Source of the DNA: Maribellus sediminis
GTDB taxonomy: Bacteria; Bacteroidota; Bacteroidia; Bacteroidales; Prolixibacteraceae
Reading direction: 5' to 3'
DNA length: 64,000 bases
Assembly: GCF_011799805.1 (NCBI RefSeq)
Contig: NZ_WXUB01000002.1
Coordinates: forward strand, 248,001 to 312,000
The notes beneath the pieces are model-generated. The model worked only from the letters and a program-made list of their open reading frames with translations. It was not told the DNA's origin and did no database searches. The first letter of the stretch is position 1. The number at the start of each line of letters is the position of its first letter. This document shows, piece by piece, positions 2,652 to 33,944 of this stretch. The translations under genes and the position numbers were made by a program.

Positions 2652-2668
2652 TTTGACTTTTGTCTCAG

Positions 2669-2742
2669 TCGGGATGACAGGATTTGAACCTGCGACCCCG
2701 TCGTCCCGAACGACGTACGCTACCGGACTGCGCTACATCCCG
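2669..2742 (-). tRNA. tRNA-Pro (anticodon CGG)
   Basis: Seventy-four nucleotides fold as a full cloverleaf. The acceptor arm is CGGGATG/CATCCCG with discriminator A. The D stem is GCGC/GCGT, the anticodon stem CGTCG/CGACG with loop TTCGGGA (anticodon CGG, reading CCG), and the T arm GCAGG-TTCAAAT-CCTGT. The CCA end is not encoded (CTG follows). A second copy of the tRNA's first 13 bases plus two flanking bases sits just upstream, at 2811-2825. Confidence 0.96.
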
Positions 2743-2825
2743 AATATTTCAAAGAATGCTCGCCATGTGTCCTTAACGGACTACCTGCCCGAAAGAATTC
2801 GTTCAGGCGGGCGCTACATCCCGAA
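2730..2825. repeat. 15-bp direct repeat of the tRNA-Pro 5' end flanking a palindrome-bearing insert
   Basis: The 15-mer GCGCTACATCCCGAA occurs at 2730-2744 (inside and just beyond the tRNA 5' end) and again at 2811-2825. The 66 bp between the copies hold a 28-bp imperfect palindrome at 2784-2811 centred on GAATTC (three mismatched pairs of fourteen, two of which can wobble in one RNA strand). The layout resembles a small palindromic mobile repeat that duplicated its target while leaving an intact tRNA. No transposase is present. Confidence 0.65.
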
Positions 2826-2829
2826 ATGA

Positions 2830-3270
2830 TTATTTAAAATTTACTGTTCAAATAACCGATAGCAAAAATAAACATTTTTTACTTTTTACAATAGGGAATC
2901 GGTTTTCATTATTCCTGTAAAAATCCACAACATTTCAATATATATAAATTAACATAATATAAATTATAAGACTTGTCAGAGATTGGATTTTATTAAGGTT
3001 TTTATATCCCAATTTATGTCTGACTCCGCTGTTTTCCTAAAATCAGATATTTGGCAGTAACTGTTGAATATCGCAAGGGATTTATGAAAAGTTAATAGAA
3101 TGTACTTTAAAACAATTTTCAGATAATACATTTCCTTCATTGATAGAATTGAAAAAAAATCAAATACTAAACGCATCGAGATTTTGTTTTTCTGTACAAC
3201 CGCACATAAATATTTTTTTATGCGATTCTCGCTCGTTATGAATATTCGTGCATTTAGTCGTTGAACCAGG
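2830..3270. other. AT-rich intergenic region, no gene seen
   Basis: Between the tRNA-flanking repeat and the DUF349 terminator I see no credible coding frame on either strand. One minus-strand frame at 2976-3176 lacks any recognisable domain. The tRNA promoter should lie near 2830-2880 on the minus strand, but no clear TAnnTTTG box stands out. Confidence 0.5.
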
Positions 3271-30943: not shown

Positions 30944-31855
30944 TTAAAGCTGCAGTGAACCAATCAGTTCTTCAACGGAATTCATGTTATGACGTTCCAA
31001 ATATTCTTTTACCCCATCAATAATTTGCAAGGCTACCAAAGGATCTTTAAAAACTGCCGTACCAACCTGAACTACCGAAGCTCCTGCCAACATAAATTCA
31101 ATGGCATCGGCTGCATTCATAATACCCCCCATTCCAATAACCGGTATTTTAACTGCATTGGCCACCTGCCAAACCATGCGTAAGGCAATTGGTTTAATGG
31201 CCGGACCTGAAAGTCCGCCAGTAATGGTAGAAAGTTTTGGCTTTCGTGTTTCTGCTTCGATGGCCATTCCAAGAAAAGTATTTACCAGGGAAACGGCATC
31301 AGCTCCCTGCCCTTCTACAGCCTGGGCAATGTCGGTAATACTGGTTACGTTTGGCGAAAGTTTAACAATTAGAGTTTTATCGTAAACCTTGCGTACTTCG
31401 CGGGTTACCATCTCTGCACTCGGGCAGCTAACACCAAATGCCATTCCACCTTCCTTCACATTCGGACATGAAATATTTAGTTCGATCCCCTGAATCTTAT
31501 CAAGTTCGTTTACCTTTTCAGTAAGTGCGATGTAATCTTCAACGGTCGATCCGTTTACATTTATAATAAGTTGAGTATCGTAGTCAATTATTTCGGGGTA
31601 GATGTTTTCAATAAAATAATCGATGCCTTTATTTTGAAGCCCAACAGCATTTAGCATTCCCGATGGAGTTTCTGCCATTCGCGGGTAAGCATTCCCGTCC
31701 CTGTTTTTAAGGGTTGTGCCCTTCAGAAAGAAACCTCCAACCAACGACGGATCAAAAAAATCGGTCATCTCACGCGCAAAACCACATGTTCCGGAAGCCA
31801 GTGTTATAGGATTCTTGAATTCTAAGTTGTGAACTTTTACCTTTAAATCTACCAT
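30944..31855 (-). CDS. pyrD: Dihydroorotate dehydrogenase, class 1B catalytic subunit
   Basis: 303 residues. TIM-barrel FMN enzyme: [23 protein letters not shown], the active-site loop with catalytic Cys in [55 protein letters not shown]. It oxidises dihydroorotate to orotate in pyrimidine synthesis. It overlaps the electron-transfer subunit gene by 7 bp, which identifies the NAD-linked class 1B enzyme (PyrD/PyrK heterotetramer). Confidence 0.95.
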
Positions 31856-32625
31856 TTTAATTCATTGATATTAAATACCGGACCATCAGTACAAACACAT
31901 TGATTCCCATTCTTAGTTGGCTCGATGCAGCACAAACACACTCCGAAGCCACACGCCATAAGGTTTTCGAGCGAAACCTCGCAGTAAACTTCTGCATCTT
32001 TAGCGTGTTTGGCAACAGCGCGCATCATTCCGTCGGGTCCACAGGCATAAATTTTAGTATAATTCTTGAGGTTAGTTGTAAACACCGAATGTTGTGTTAC
32101 AAAACCCTTCTCACCCAGAGAACCATCTTCTGATGCATAATGTAAACTGGCATACTTAGCGTAATCTTCCACATTTACATGATCCTGGCTGGTTCGGGCT
32201 CCTAATATTAAATCCACCTGGCTGATAGGTAATCCTGATTCTTTTGCCAGGAATAACATTGGAGCTACGCCACTTCCTCCACCAACAAGCAGAATTTTAT
32301 CATCCTTATCCGGATACGTGAAGCTCTTCCCCAGCGGATAAACCAGACTCAGCTTGCTTCCAACCTTTATTTCTGTAAGTTTTCCTGAACCTTTCCCCAG
32401 AATTTTAACGATCATCGATAAGGTATTATCTTCATAATCGACTTCAAATACAGAAAAGGGACGCCGCAGAAATATGTCTGTAGCTTCATGTATTTCAACG
32501 TTTACAAATTGTCCGGGCTTAATTTCAGGCAGCAGAGTTGGTGCTTTTACCTTGATAAGAAAATTTGTAGCATTTAACGCTCTATTTTCCACTACCACAA
32601 ACTCTGCAACAAACTTTTTTGGCAT
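31849..32625 (-). CDS. pyrK: Dihydroorotate dehydrogenase electron transfer subunit
   Basis: 258 residues. FAD-binding ferredoxin-reductase fold ([40 protein letters not shown]). The C-terminal [2Fe-2S] site is CGFGVCLCC...CVCTDGPVF, with four Cys. It passes electrons from PyrD to NAD. It is upstream of and overlaps pyrD. A -7 box TATCTTTG lies at 32644-32651, giving a very short leader; the small-RNA array lies further upstream on the same strand. Confidence 0.94.
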
Positions 32626-32643
32626 CTGATTTTAATTTGAGGC

Positions 32644-32651
32644 CAAAGATA
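32644..32651 (-). promoter_or_regulatory. -7 promoter box of pyrK-pyrD
   Basis: TATCTTTG on the minus strand; predicted start near 32637, about 12 nt before the pyrK ATG. No clear -33 element. Confidence 0.5.
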
Positions 32652-32687
32652 ATAGTTTTATTTCGCTTTTTTTCTGAAGAAACTGCA

Positions 32688-32770
32688 ATAAAAAAGACCG
32701 TCGTGATGCGGTCTCTTTTATGCTTGAAAATTATTGATTGATAAAAAATAAAGGGTCATTTGTTAATCGA
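32688..32770 (-). ncRNA. Candidate small RNA 1 of the tandem array (about 83 nt)
   Basis: Predicted transcript from promoter P1 to a hairpin with arms GAGACCG and CGGTCT (32695-32700 with 32709-32714 on the plus strand) and a six-U run. The best frame would encode 13 residues and has no clear ribosome-binding site, so I treat the unit as non-coding. It is the nearest unit to pyrK and could instead be read as an attenuated leader of pyrK-pyrD, but pyrK has a closer -7 box of its own. Confidence 0.5.
32689..32718 (-). terminator. Intrinsic terminator of array unit 1
   Basis: GACCG/CGGTC stem with flanking A/T pairs, followed by TTTTTTATTG on the minus strand. Confidence 0.8.
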
Positions 32771-32774
32771 ACAG

Positions 32775-32808
32775 TACAAATGTAATTATTAATATTTACA
32801 TATGCAAA
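32775..32808 (-). promoter_or_regulatory. Array promoter P1
   Basis: Minus strand: TTTGCATATGTAAA (32808-32795) supplies -33 TTTG, a 20-bp spacer follows, then -7 TACATTTG (32784-32777), extended to the palindrome TACATTTGTA. The 14-mer is a near-palindrome (TTT-R-CATATG-Y-AAA), so it may also be an operator. Confidence 0.75.
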
Positions 32809-32849
32809 CTGATTTCTTAAAATATTTAAAGTAGAACACTCACCTCTAT

Positions 32850-32978
32850 AAAACCAGAAAGGCCACTATTACTAGTGGCCTAAAGCGACTTCTGGATTTA
32901 TCTACTTAAAAAAATTGGGTTTGTAAATTGATCTATTATTTTGTGATCATCTTGTCTAATAACTTTTGTAAAAATCTT
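32850..32978 (-). ncRNA. Candidate small RNA 2 of the tandem array (about 129 nt)
   Basis: Predicted transcript from promoter P2 to a 9-bp hairpin with arms AGGCCACTA and TAGTGGCCT. The only AUG frames are a few codons long. The body shares no long similarity with units 1 and 3. A 12-mer, TTGTAAATTGAT (32930-32941), recurs upstream of P2 near 33045. Confidence 0.5.
32852..32881 (-). terminator. Terminator-like hairpin of array unit 2
   Basis: AGGCCACTA/TAGTGGCCT around a 4-nt loop. The following minus-strand tail TTCTGGTTTTA is only moderately U-rich, so termination may be partial. Confidence 0.65.
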
Positions 32979-32982
32979 ACGA

Positions 32983-33016
32983 TACAAATGTAATGCATAG
33001 TTTTTACATATGCAAA
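32983..33016 (-). promoter_or_regulatory. Array promoter P2
   Basis: Same architecture as P1: TTTGCATATGTAAA (33016-33003), 20-bp spacer, TACATTTG (32992-32985), extended to TACATTTGTA. The conserved 14-mer, the identical spacing and the identical -7 box make coincidence unlikely. Confidence 0.75.
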
Positions 33017-33075
33017 CATTGCGCGAATTATTTTTACATTATTTTGTAAATTGATTTAATACTACCTTACAACAC

Positions 33076-33097
33076 TTGTAAATACAGGTGTTTACAT
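33076..33097. repeat. Inverted repeat between array units
   Basis: AACAC-tTGTaaatACAg-GTGTT pairs as two 5-bp arms plus inner TGT/ACA. It lies between P2 and unit 3. It could be an operator or part of a read-through RNA. Confidence 0.4.
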
Positions 33098-33187
33098 TTT
33101 TAGAGATATGAAAATTACATTTAGGATTGTACAAACATGAATTATTCATCATTCTATTTCTCCGAAACTAATTGATCTCATTACCGA

Positions 33188-33304
33188 ATAAAAATAGGAA
33201 GACCGACTAAACCAGCCGATCTTCCTATTCTCTTTCATCGATTAGTTCCTGATTGAAACCATCGATTGTTACCGATACAATTATTCTCTACAACAACAAA
33301 TTAA
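33188..33304 (-). ncRNA. Candidate small RNA 3 of the tandem array (about 117 nt)
   Basis: Predicted transcript from promoter P3 to a strong terminator. The body contains its own hairpin: AUCGAU repeated at both sides with inner GUUUC/GGAAC. A 31-residue AUG frame runs into and beyond the terminator and looks fortuitous. This unit lies closest to the XRE gene. Confidence 0.5.
33189..33230 (-). terminator. Intrinsic terminator of array unit 3
   Basis: Ten-bp arms AATAGGAAGA (33193-33202) and TCTTCCTATT (33220-33229), extended by CG/CG after one mismatch; TTTTTATTCGG follows on the minus strand. Confidence 0.85.
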
Positions 33305-33308
33305 TGTA

Positions 33309-33341
33309 TACAAATATACAACAATAATTTACATATGCAAA
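33309..33341 (-). promoter_or_regulatory. Array promoter P3
   Basis: TTTGCATATGTAAA (33341-33328), a 19-bp spacer, then TATATTTG (33318-33311). The -33 TTTG overlaps the U run of the XRE terminator, so the array begins exactly where the regulator transcript should end. Confidence 0.72.
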
Positions 33342-33370
33342 AAAGGACTTTCAAAATGTAAAAGTCCTTT
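33337..33370 (-). terminator. Intrinsic terminator of the XRE gene
   Basis: Perfect 10-bp arms AAAGGACTTT (33342-33351) and AAAGTCCTTT (33361-33370), with a six-U run on the minus strand that merges into promoter P3. Confidence 0.9.
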
Positions 33371-33408
33371 AATCGTTACTCTAAATCTATGATTGGTTTT
33401 TCGACAGA

Positions 33409-33831
33409 TTATTTCTTCCTGTAAGTAGTAAACGTACCGTCATTAAATAGTAAAACAACTTTGTTTACATCATCATCCGAATACGGTATCCCTGGTTTTG
33501 TTTTACTAGCTTTTTCTGCTATCGGTTCTGATTTCTCAGTTTCTGACGGAGTATGTGTCTTATCTACTGGTATGAAATGTTCTTGATGTGCTGCAGGTGT
33601 AATGTCCTGGCTTACATTATTAGCTTCCACCATAGTTCCCTGGCCTGTTAAAAGCCACCTGGCATTCAGATCCGGGAATACATTCAACATCTTTTCTATT
33701 AAGGCCGCACTGGGTTTGTTTCTGCCATTTAATATATGTGAAATGTTAGAACGCTGAACTTCCAGCTTTACAGCTAGTTCTCCGGCGTTAATTCCCTTGT
33801 GATCCATATACTCCTGTATTCTATCCTTCAT
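33409..33831 (-). CDS. XRE-family helix-turn-helix regulator
   Basis: 140 residues. Residues 1-62 are an HTH_3/XRE domain (RIQEYMDHKGINAGELAVKLEVQRSNISHILNGRNKPSAALIEKMLNVFPDLNARWLLTGQG). A disordered polar linker (about 65-115) leads to a short C-terminal motif, VNKVVLLFNDGTFTTYRKK, seen in Bacteroidota regulators of this type. It is a DNA-binding protein, probably dimeric. The gene has its own promoter overlapped by a palindrome, ends in a strong terminator and is followed on the same strand by three promoter-terminator units. It is the obvious candidate for binding the repeated TTTGCATATGTAAA element, but that is inference. Confidence 0.9.
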   Translation of the reverse strand: MKDRIQEYMDHKGINAGELAVKLEVQRSNISHILNGRNKPSAALIEKMLNVFPDLNARWLLTGQGTMVEANNVSQDITPAAHQEHFIPVDKTHTPSETEKSEPIAEKASKTKPGIPYSDDDVNKVVLLFNDGTFTTYRKK

Positions 33832-33904: not shown

Positions 33905-33944
33905 CAAATGTAACAAATAATTTAAAACACACAATAGCATTGTG
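33905..33944 (-). promoter_or_regulatory. Promoter and operator-like palindrome of the XRE gene
   Basis: -7 TACATTTG at 33912-33905 (within TACATTTGTA, the same 10-mer as P1 and P2). A -33 TTG at 33934-33932 is embedded in the perfect inverted repeat CACAAT-AGC-ATTGTG (33930-33944). A repressor bound there would block the promoter, which suits autoregulation. Predicted leader about 67 nt. Confidence 0.6.

Follow-up and report, generated by a model that had tools for sequence, protein, structure and literature searches.

Clustered small RNA (sRNA) genes under one regulator are known from LhrC, PrrF, OmrA/B and AbcR, where, as far as the accessible parts of the sources go, they are copies of one RNA. 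In Listeria, lhrC1-4 are clustered sRNA genes of 111-114 nt under one regulator, according to the available portion of the account (PMC12101431). The omrA and omrB genes are described, in an excerpt of PMC4211561, as having differing promoter regions. For FopS/GibS of Bacteroides thetaiotaomicron, the accessible text of PMC11697453 describes 14 RNAs with a common seed and canonical promoters, one of them derived from a 3'-UTR.

The window analysed here is a stretch of 64,000 nucleotides of Maribellus sediminis (assembly GCF_011799805.1, contig NZ_WXUB01000002.1, positions 248,001 to 312,000). It contains an array of three promoter-terminator units between a gene for an XRE-type regulator and pyrK. 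Comparison with related genomes suggests that the array is probably a regulator-linked battery of three unrelated sRNA genes under common XRE control.

Organisation of the locus

All features discussed here lie on the minus strand, in the order regulator gene, terminator-like hairpin, units A, B and C, pyrK and pyrD. Unit A spans 33341-33187 (unit 3 of the initial annotation), unit B 33016-32850 and unit C 32808-32690 (its unit 1). The pyrK-like gene (31849-32625) encodes Pfam DHODB_Fe-S_bind and oxidoreductase domains, and is followed by the dihydroorotate dehydrogenase gene pyrD (30944-31855), also assigned by Pfam.

The regulator gene (33409-33831) encodes a protein of 140 aa with an HTH_3 domain (Pfam, 31.8 bits against a cut-off of 23), which is the proposed owner of the putative operator described below. 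The likely -7 box of this gene, TACATTTG, was located by sequence at 33905-33912, with a best dyad score of 7/12, and its terminator-like hairpin lies at 33341-33369, with a T run that extends into the first putative operator. In an AlphaFold2 model, five helices within residues 2-62 are joined by a low-confidence linker to C-terminal strands at residues 124-128 and 134-138. Foldseek matches of this fold include SinR, 434 Cro/repressor and C-proteins (best E 0.0065), and domain and predicted helix-turn-helix fold are both those of an XRE (HTH_3) repressor.

An identity as HigA antitoxin was considered and rejected. The NCBIfam equivalog reaches 23.8 bits against a cut-off of 47.7, and pairing with HigB is not seen, the flanking genes of the regulator being pyrK and a 965-aa gene without a Pfam match at E 0.001.

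Three predicted promoters with a common dyad

For the main sigma factor of Bacteroides, the accessible part of PMC7366714 gives TAnnTTTG at -7 and TTTG near -33 as the consensus. The initial annotation had reported the 14-mer TTTGCATATGTAAA three times on the minus strand, each copy providing a -33 TTTG and followed after 20, 20 and 19 bp by a TAnnTTTG box. All of this is borne out. Exact copies, each a putative operator, lie at 33328-33341 (unit A), 33003-33016 (unit B) and 32795-32808 (unit C), and the matching -7 boxes are TATATTTG at 33311-33318 (A), TACATTTG at 32985-32992 (B) and TACATTTG at 32777-32784 (C). From the start of the 14-mer to the start of the box the distance is 24 bp for C and B and 23 bp for A.

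The element itself was corrected to a 14-bp dyad with the consensus TTTGCAnnTGTAAA and the half-sites TTTGCA and TGTAAA; the -33 TTTG forms one of its ends. Because the 14-mer is a near-palindrome, a search of the window with at most two mismatches returns six matches, which are the three sites read on both strands; shuffled windows gave a mean of 1.40 and reached six in 1 of 100 cases. The whole genome (G000; 5,595,594 bases) contains three exact copies, every one of them in the array, against none for the reversed control.

A search of 41 genomes for the exact 14-mer gave 22 matches (reversed control 0), comprising 14 in arrays, seven upstream of an OadG-like gene and one (L048) that is apparently coding. 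The OadG-like gene was named by eye; in these seven relatives (L032, L033, L034, L037, L038, L040 and L049) TTTGCATATGTAAA lies near position 1501 of the respective locus, in a conserved context that has no -7 box at promoter spacing and is possibly a further operator. A degenerate pattern for the composite promoter matched 35 times in 61 genomes (reversed control 3). Of these matches, 32 lie in the array, one shortly after the regulator gene, close to the edge of a contig (G027), one before a regulator homologue in another family (G059) and one in apparently coding sequence (G001).

Bodies, boxes and terminators of the three predicted RNAs

The predicted sRNA A (33187-33304) carries the box TTGTTGTNGTAGAGAA near its 5' end and a predicted terminator hairpin at 33190-33226. 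The predicted sRNA B (32850-32978), delimited by alignment and by the covariance model R1, has two boxes, GACAAGATGAT at 32946-32956 (GACARGATGAT in most aligned copies) and TTTACAAACCC at 32917-32927 (nearly invariant in the alignment), and ends in a nested terminator stem (32850-32895). The predicted sRNA C (32690-32770), delimited by alignment and by the covariance model R2, contains the C-box GACCCTTTATTTTTTATC (32740-32757), which is repeated elsewhere in the genome, and a predicted terminator hairpin at 32690-32714. The unit alignments of relatives took in 17 of 21 A units, 28 of 37 B units and 17 of 21 C units; each unit type has a conserved box upstream of its terminator, and the C-box consensus in the C alignment is GACCCTT(T)ATTTTTTAYC.

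The claim that each unit ends in a hairpin agrees with the predictions for all three. Among relatives, a hairpin followed by a T run was found in 20/21 A, 36/37 B and 20/21 C units (76/79 together) versus 4/370 shuffled pieces. The window's own C is the sole C unit that fails this test; in its predicted fold, the hairpin stem absorbs the T run. The terminator stem of B shows changes on both sides at five of six consensus pairs in at least one of 28 sequences, the C alignment shows a double change at one of eight pairs (17 sequences), and RNAalifold found no consensus pair in the A alignment (17 units). In minimum free energy folds, 92/121 box positions are unpaired in B (11 loci), 82/124 in C and 30/70 in A; a single-stranded box is thus predicted for B, partly for C and not for A.

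The bodies had been described as unlike each other, and pairwise local alignments of A, B and C in six loci indeed score no better than dinucleotide shuffles, the fraction of shuffles that reach the observed score being 0.11-0.86. The homology expected of sibling or multicopy sRNAs is therefore absent among A, B and C in these six loci and present between the B copies of the 4/37 loci in which B is duplicated. A likeness between the boxes of B and C, seen by eye, was discarded when it disappeared in the shuffling test. Rfam detects only a tRNA above threshold in the whole window; for 32600-33420, searched up to E 10, it returns 19 sub-threshold matches, the best with 21.5 bits against 44.

No minus-strand frame of at least 30 aa lies inside any unit, so that the absence of a credible ORF, as initially annotated, holds as far as tested. 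The suggestion that the units encode tiny or leader peptides can draw on an ATG in or near box 1 of B in most of the 11 loci inspected, but these frames stop after 2 to 13 further codons and vary in length and sequence between loci. A 37-aa frame in the spacer between A and B (33039-33152) is likewise not conserved, with no match better than E 0.99 in the other 38 of 39 loci, and a coding function is extremely improbable. The units instead have the attributes of trans-acting intergenic sRNA genes, namely a promoter of their own (as a sequence match), an intrinsic terminator and no conserved ORF.

Conservation among relatives

Of 61 genomes, 47 contain a match to the regulator protein. A second set of relatives consisted of the best 80 of 110, in which Maribellus, Draconibacterium and Mariniphaga are nearest; the relatives include Draconibacterium orientale and Maribellus luteus. 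Both lists together, with duplicates left out, gave a near-clade set of 39 loci, of which the 37 with pyrK on the contig were kept. In these 37 loci, the regulator gene precedes pyrK on the same strand, at a distance of 88 to 1401 bp. RNA B is present in 33 of them and A, B and C together in 21, always in this order, and four loci (L022, L073, L075 and L076) have no unit. The raw count for A was 22 loci and became 21 when fuzzy matches in L072 and L056 (in the latter, the second one) were dropped. Many relatives thus keep the arrangement regulator, array and pyrK with conserved order. B is duplicated in 4/37 loci (L006, L025, L027 and L066). At L006 (genome G009), positions 2657-3069 hold two near-identical tandem copies of B, which gives a four-unit array.

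In each genome, the covariance searches scored a subset of the first-look candidates (58 or 70 for the B and C models in the 61 genomes, nine for the B model in 393 genomes across the order), and because of this weak relatives were possibly missed in the following counts: the B model matches at E<=1e-8 in 26/61 genomes, 25 times beside the regulator gene and once (G012) beside pyrK; the C model matches at E<=1e-6 in 19/61; and in the 393 genomes the B model matches in 17 at E<=0.001 and strongly in three, all with the arrangement regulator-B-pyrK. Two of the strong matches (G357 and G207) are the loci L055 and L066. Among the weak matches in other families, those that were read look for the most part like ordinary gene terminators.

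In relatives, the dyad is not kept in every unit. Scored as matches to TTTGCAnnTGTAAA over 12 positions, it reaches at least 10/12 in 8/21 A, 24/37 B and 14/21 C units of the 37 loci. The remaining 13/21 A, 13/37 B and 7/21 C units score below 10/12 or have no -7 box; those of B are all in loci with B only, and unit C of L054 and L057 lacks a recognised -7 box. A common regulator site at each promoter is thus found exactly at all three units in this genome and partly in relatives. The proposal of three sRNAs under one control, as initially annotated, is supported by synteny and order, boxes, terminators, the covariation in B and the contrast between array promoters and the pyrK promoters described next. 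The common control is strict in this genome, but some units of relatives lack the dyad.

In 35/37 loci, pyrK has a TAnnTTTG box beginning 24-27 bp ahead of it, past the terminator of C where C is present. In the window, this likely -7 box of pyrK is TATCTTTG (32644-32651), identified by sequence and apart from the array. None of the 35 pyrK promoters scored has a dyad of at least 10/12, and the best reaches 7/12. These promoters bear on the alternative, raised in the initial annotation, that unit C is an attenuator of pyrK-pyrD, or more broadly that the units are cis-acting leaders, of which at least C senses a nucleotide and governs read-through into pyrK. The constant position of the units before pyrK would suit such a role, and duplexes of C with the pyrK start have energies below the shuffle mean in 6/7 loci (z 0.6 to -2.3), which is a weak hint in the same direction. 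Against this, a promoter-like box stands between C and the gene, which is at odds with a pyr leader or attenuator, A and B have terminators of their own further upstream, and no Rfam leader scores above threshold. An attenuator is unlikely because pyrK has its own dyad-free promoter (as a sequence match), and the whole cis-leader reading is considered very unlikely.

The dyad and the XRE-type regulator

XRE/HTH_3 repressors, such as SinR, 434 Cro/repressor and the C-proteins, bind short dyads. An association of the dyad with the regulator family is seen in 56 homologue loci outside the clade, in which TAnnTTTG sites with a dyad score of at least 9 amount to 23/84 upstream of the regulator versus 9/619 elsewhere. 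With TTG fixed at -33, at least 6/8 matches to CAnnTGTAAA occur in 15/39 promoter-like sites upstream of the regulator versus 1/70 others in the same loci. The significance of both enrichments is overstated, because these loci are interrelated and were retrieved in part with peptide patterns covering some of the recognition helix.

A draw made independently of the regulator used the pattern TTTGCANNTGTRAA-N9-11-TANNTTTG in the 393 genomes. It yielded 24 matches in 21 genomes (reversed control 0), three of which are the window's own. Of the 21 matches outside the window's genome, two of which are near-identical copies in G249, seven sit 13-137 nt before an XRE gene of the regulator's type (the one in L260 assigned by eye) and 14 do not. 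In other Bacteroidales families, the dyad occupies the same promoter position before the regulator's own gene. Within the clade, 33 regulator promoters were scored. Three of them, in the B-only loci L009, L061 and L062, have a dyad of at least 10/12; none does in the 21 loci with A, B and C, which have the dyad at promoters of the array, and this genome is among those without it. The operator link rests mainly on other families, because the regulator promoters of the clade are mostly without the dyad.

Judged from the pattern across families, the dyad probably serves as operator for the XRE-type regulator family whose gene adjoins the array. It may have moved in this lineage from the promoter of the regulator to the array, which would fit the distribution in the clade. 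A competing account keeps the sRNA genes but lets a different factor read the dyad, or takes it as an extended element of main-sigma promoters, with the XRE gene sharing this control in some families. It can point to the fact that TTTG itself is the -33 element, to the 30/33 clade loci in which the scored regulator promoter is without the dyad, and to the 14 of 21 draw matches that precede other genes. A general promoter element is, however, hard to reconcile with the 35 dyad-free pyrK promoters in the same loci, and the extension remains enriched before the regulator family when the -33 element is held fixed. Control by another factor is considered quite unlikely, and the XRE-type regulator remains the preferred owner of the dyad.

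C-box copies and candidate targets

The C-box (17-18 nt) has 50 matches in 22/61 genomes, as compared to two for the reversed pattern; four are in the window's genome. Array units C account for 19 of the 50, and 31 lie elsewhere, 29 of which were read in context. Sixteen of the 29 are located between genes of the DUF2461 and DUF5020 types, before a G+C-rich hairpin and a T run. Nine come just past the stop codon of genes whose C-terminus resembles a secretion tail, and four are in other places. A Pfam search of a single locus from each of the first two groups put the secretion-tail match at 20.4 bits, below the cut-off of 27.

In L355 (about 1450-1600) and its orthologues L358, L361-L363, L365 and L368-L372, a conserved GGGTTACTTTTT ... 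GAATATNATNATATAA precedes the C-box, and a G+C-rich hairpin with a T run follows. This stretch looks like a further small RNA that would start near the C-box from a different type of promoter. The C-box directly follows the stop codon of genes with a secretion-tail-like end in L357 (about 1484), L359, L360, L364, L367, L374, L327, L333 and L347, and these copies are possible 3'-UTR-derived RNAs. Taken together, the C-box looks like a seed common to several RNAs, by analogy with FopS of Bacteroides. For C as a leader of pyrK-pyrD, the contexts cut both ways: one C-box site precedes a DUF5020 gene, after which comes a permease-like frame, whereas the nine post-stop sites speak against it.

The exact 13-mer of the B box occurs once in the window's genome, with no repetition like that of the C-box, and a 12-mer of the A box occurs twice. 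For the complement of the B box, 33 matches in 25 genomes compare with 14 for the reversed pattern. Many of these matches fall in the B gene itself, and a widely conserved site did not emerge. Two orthologous groups with this complement (L204, L216 and L230; L210 and L229) were rejected as targets, since they show long translated similarity and look coding. The search with the A-box complement gave nothing convincing, and the complement of a 13-mer of the C-box has 62 matches versus 75 for the control. Duplexes of A, B and C with the starts of the regulator gene and pyrK in seven loci gave z values of -2.4 to 2.2, with no consistent pair.

Near position 1500 of five loci (L300, L305, L317, L318 and L321), a conserved AAAAATAAGGGTCGTATTAAG lies 88-96 nt before an OmpA/PD40 gene, as assigned by Pfam on L300. 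Thirteen nt of it, which are among the 62 matches, are perfectly complementary to the C-box in these five genomes. A C-box complement before an OmpA-family gene was not found in the window's genome by exact pattern, and the OmpA-family 5' region is only a lead as a target of C.

Short, nearly invariant boxes would also suit RNAs that do not pair with mRNAs but serve as sponges for a protein, for example one of the RRM type. The mostly unpaired box of B, which is without a widely conserved complement, would fit this, and the FopS sRNAs of Bacteroides bind RbpB, as stated in the accessible part of PMC11697453. A box of 17-18 nt as in C is, however, in our opinion long for a protein site, and three different boxes would be needed. 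Protein sponging is regarded as unlikely, and base pairing is preferred.

Proposed mechanism

From the units, boxes, terminators, synteny, dyad and dyad-regulator family association that emerge from the comparison of genomes, we infer regulator binding, repression, common induction, action in trans and targets as follows. The 140-aa XRE-type protein would bind the TTTGCAnnTGTAAA dyad as a dimer. In each sRNA promoter the dyad takes in the -33 element and some of the spacer, so that the bound dimer would block RNA polymerase and keep all three promoters shut. Repression is favoured over activation because of this position, and we hold it with fair, though not high, confidence. Loss or inactivation of the regulator would then let the A, B and C RNAs rise together. 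Each RNA would be about 80-130 nt long and consist of a conserved box, a candidate pairing region, followed by an intrinsic terminator, and would most likely act in trans via base pairing with mRNAs. The C-box copies elsewhere resemble other RNAs, and several signals could therefore converge on the targets of C.

A bolder version, which we put forward tentatively and rate somewhat below an even chance, holds that one XRE repressor commands an ordered trio of unrelated sRNAs, that further transcripts with different control, among them the 3' ends of secreted-protein mRNAs, also release the seed of C, and that this hub was built by moving an ancestral self-operator. If true, such a hub would convert a single protein signal into several post-transcriptional outputs while merging it with other signals.

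Comparison with known sRNA clusters and XRE-type repressors

Three unrelated sRNAs in fixed order beside a likely repressor, with its putative operator, did not turn up in searches of the open-access literature, nor did an XRE-linked sRNA array in Bacteroidota. The locus adds three predicted sRNA families without Rfam entries, together with a predicted operator, regulator and common seed, all of which also occur in relatives. Two questions become testable: whether a linked repressor can join unrelated sRNAs into one regulon, and by which transcription factors the sRNAs of Bacteroidota are controlled. For an HTH family that many Bacteroidales possess, the predicted operator supplies a DNA-binding site.

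The array resembles LhrC1-5, which are controlled by LisRK, in being a set of clustered sRNA genes under one regulator. According to the accessible parts of the sources, however, the lhrC genes encode variants of a single RNA and depend on a two-component regulator, whereas the RNAs of the array are unrelated and probably answer to an adjacent XRE protein. PrrF1/2, OmrA/B and AbcR1/2 share with the array the neighbouring position of their sRNA genes. Such siblings, as far as the available accounts describe them, have sequence in common, whereas A, B and C do not, and of the three only B has duplicates, in 4/37 loci.

Within the same phylum, the repeated C-box resembles the FopS arrangement, a likeness drawn from the accessible description. 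The FopS copies are dispersed and their regulator is described there as unknown, whereas the array is clustered beside its likely regulator. The N-terminal domain of the regulator has a predicted fold like that of SinR, 434 Cro/repressor and the C-proteins. The regulator differs from these proteins in its C-terminal part, a short pair of strands that carries a conserved DGTF-like motif, and in its predicted target promoters, which would drive sRNAs.
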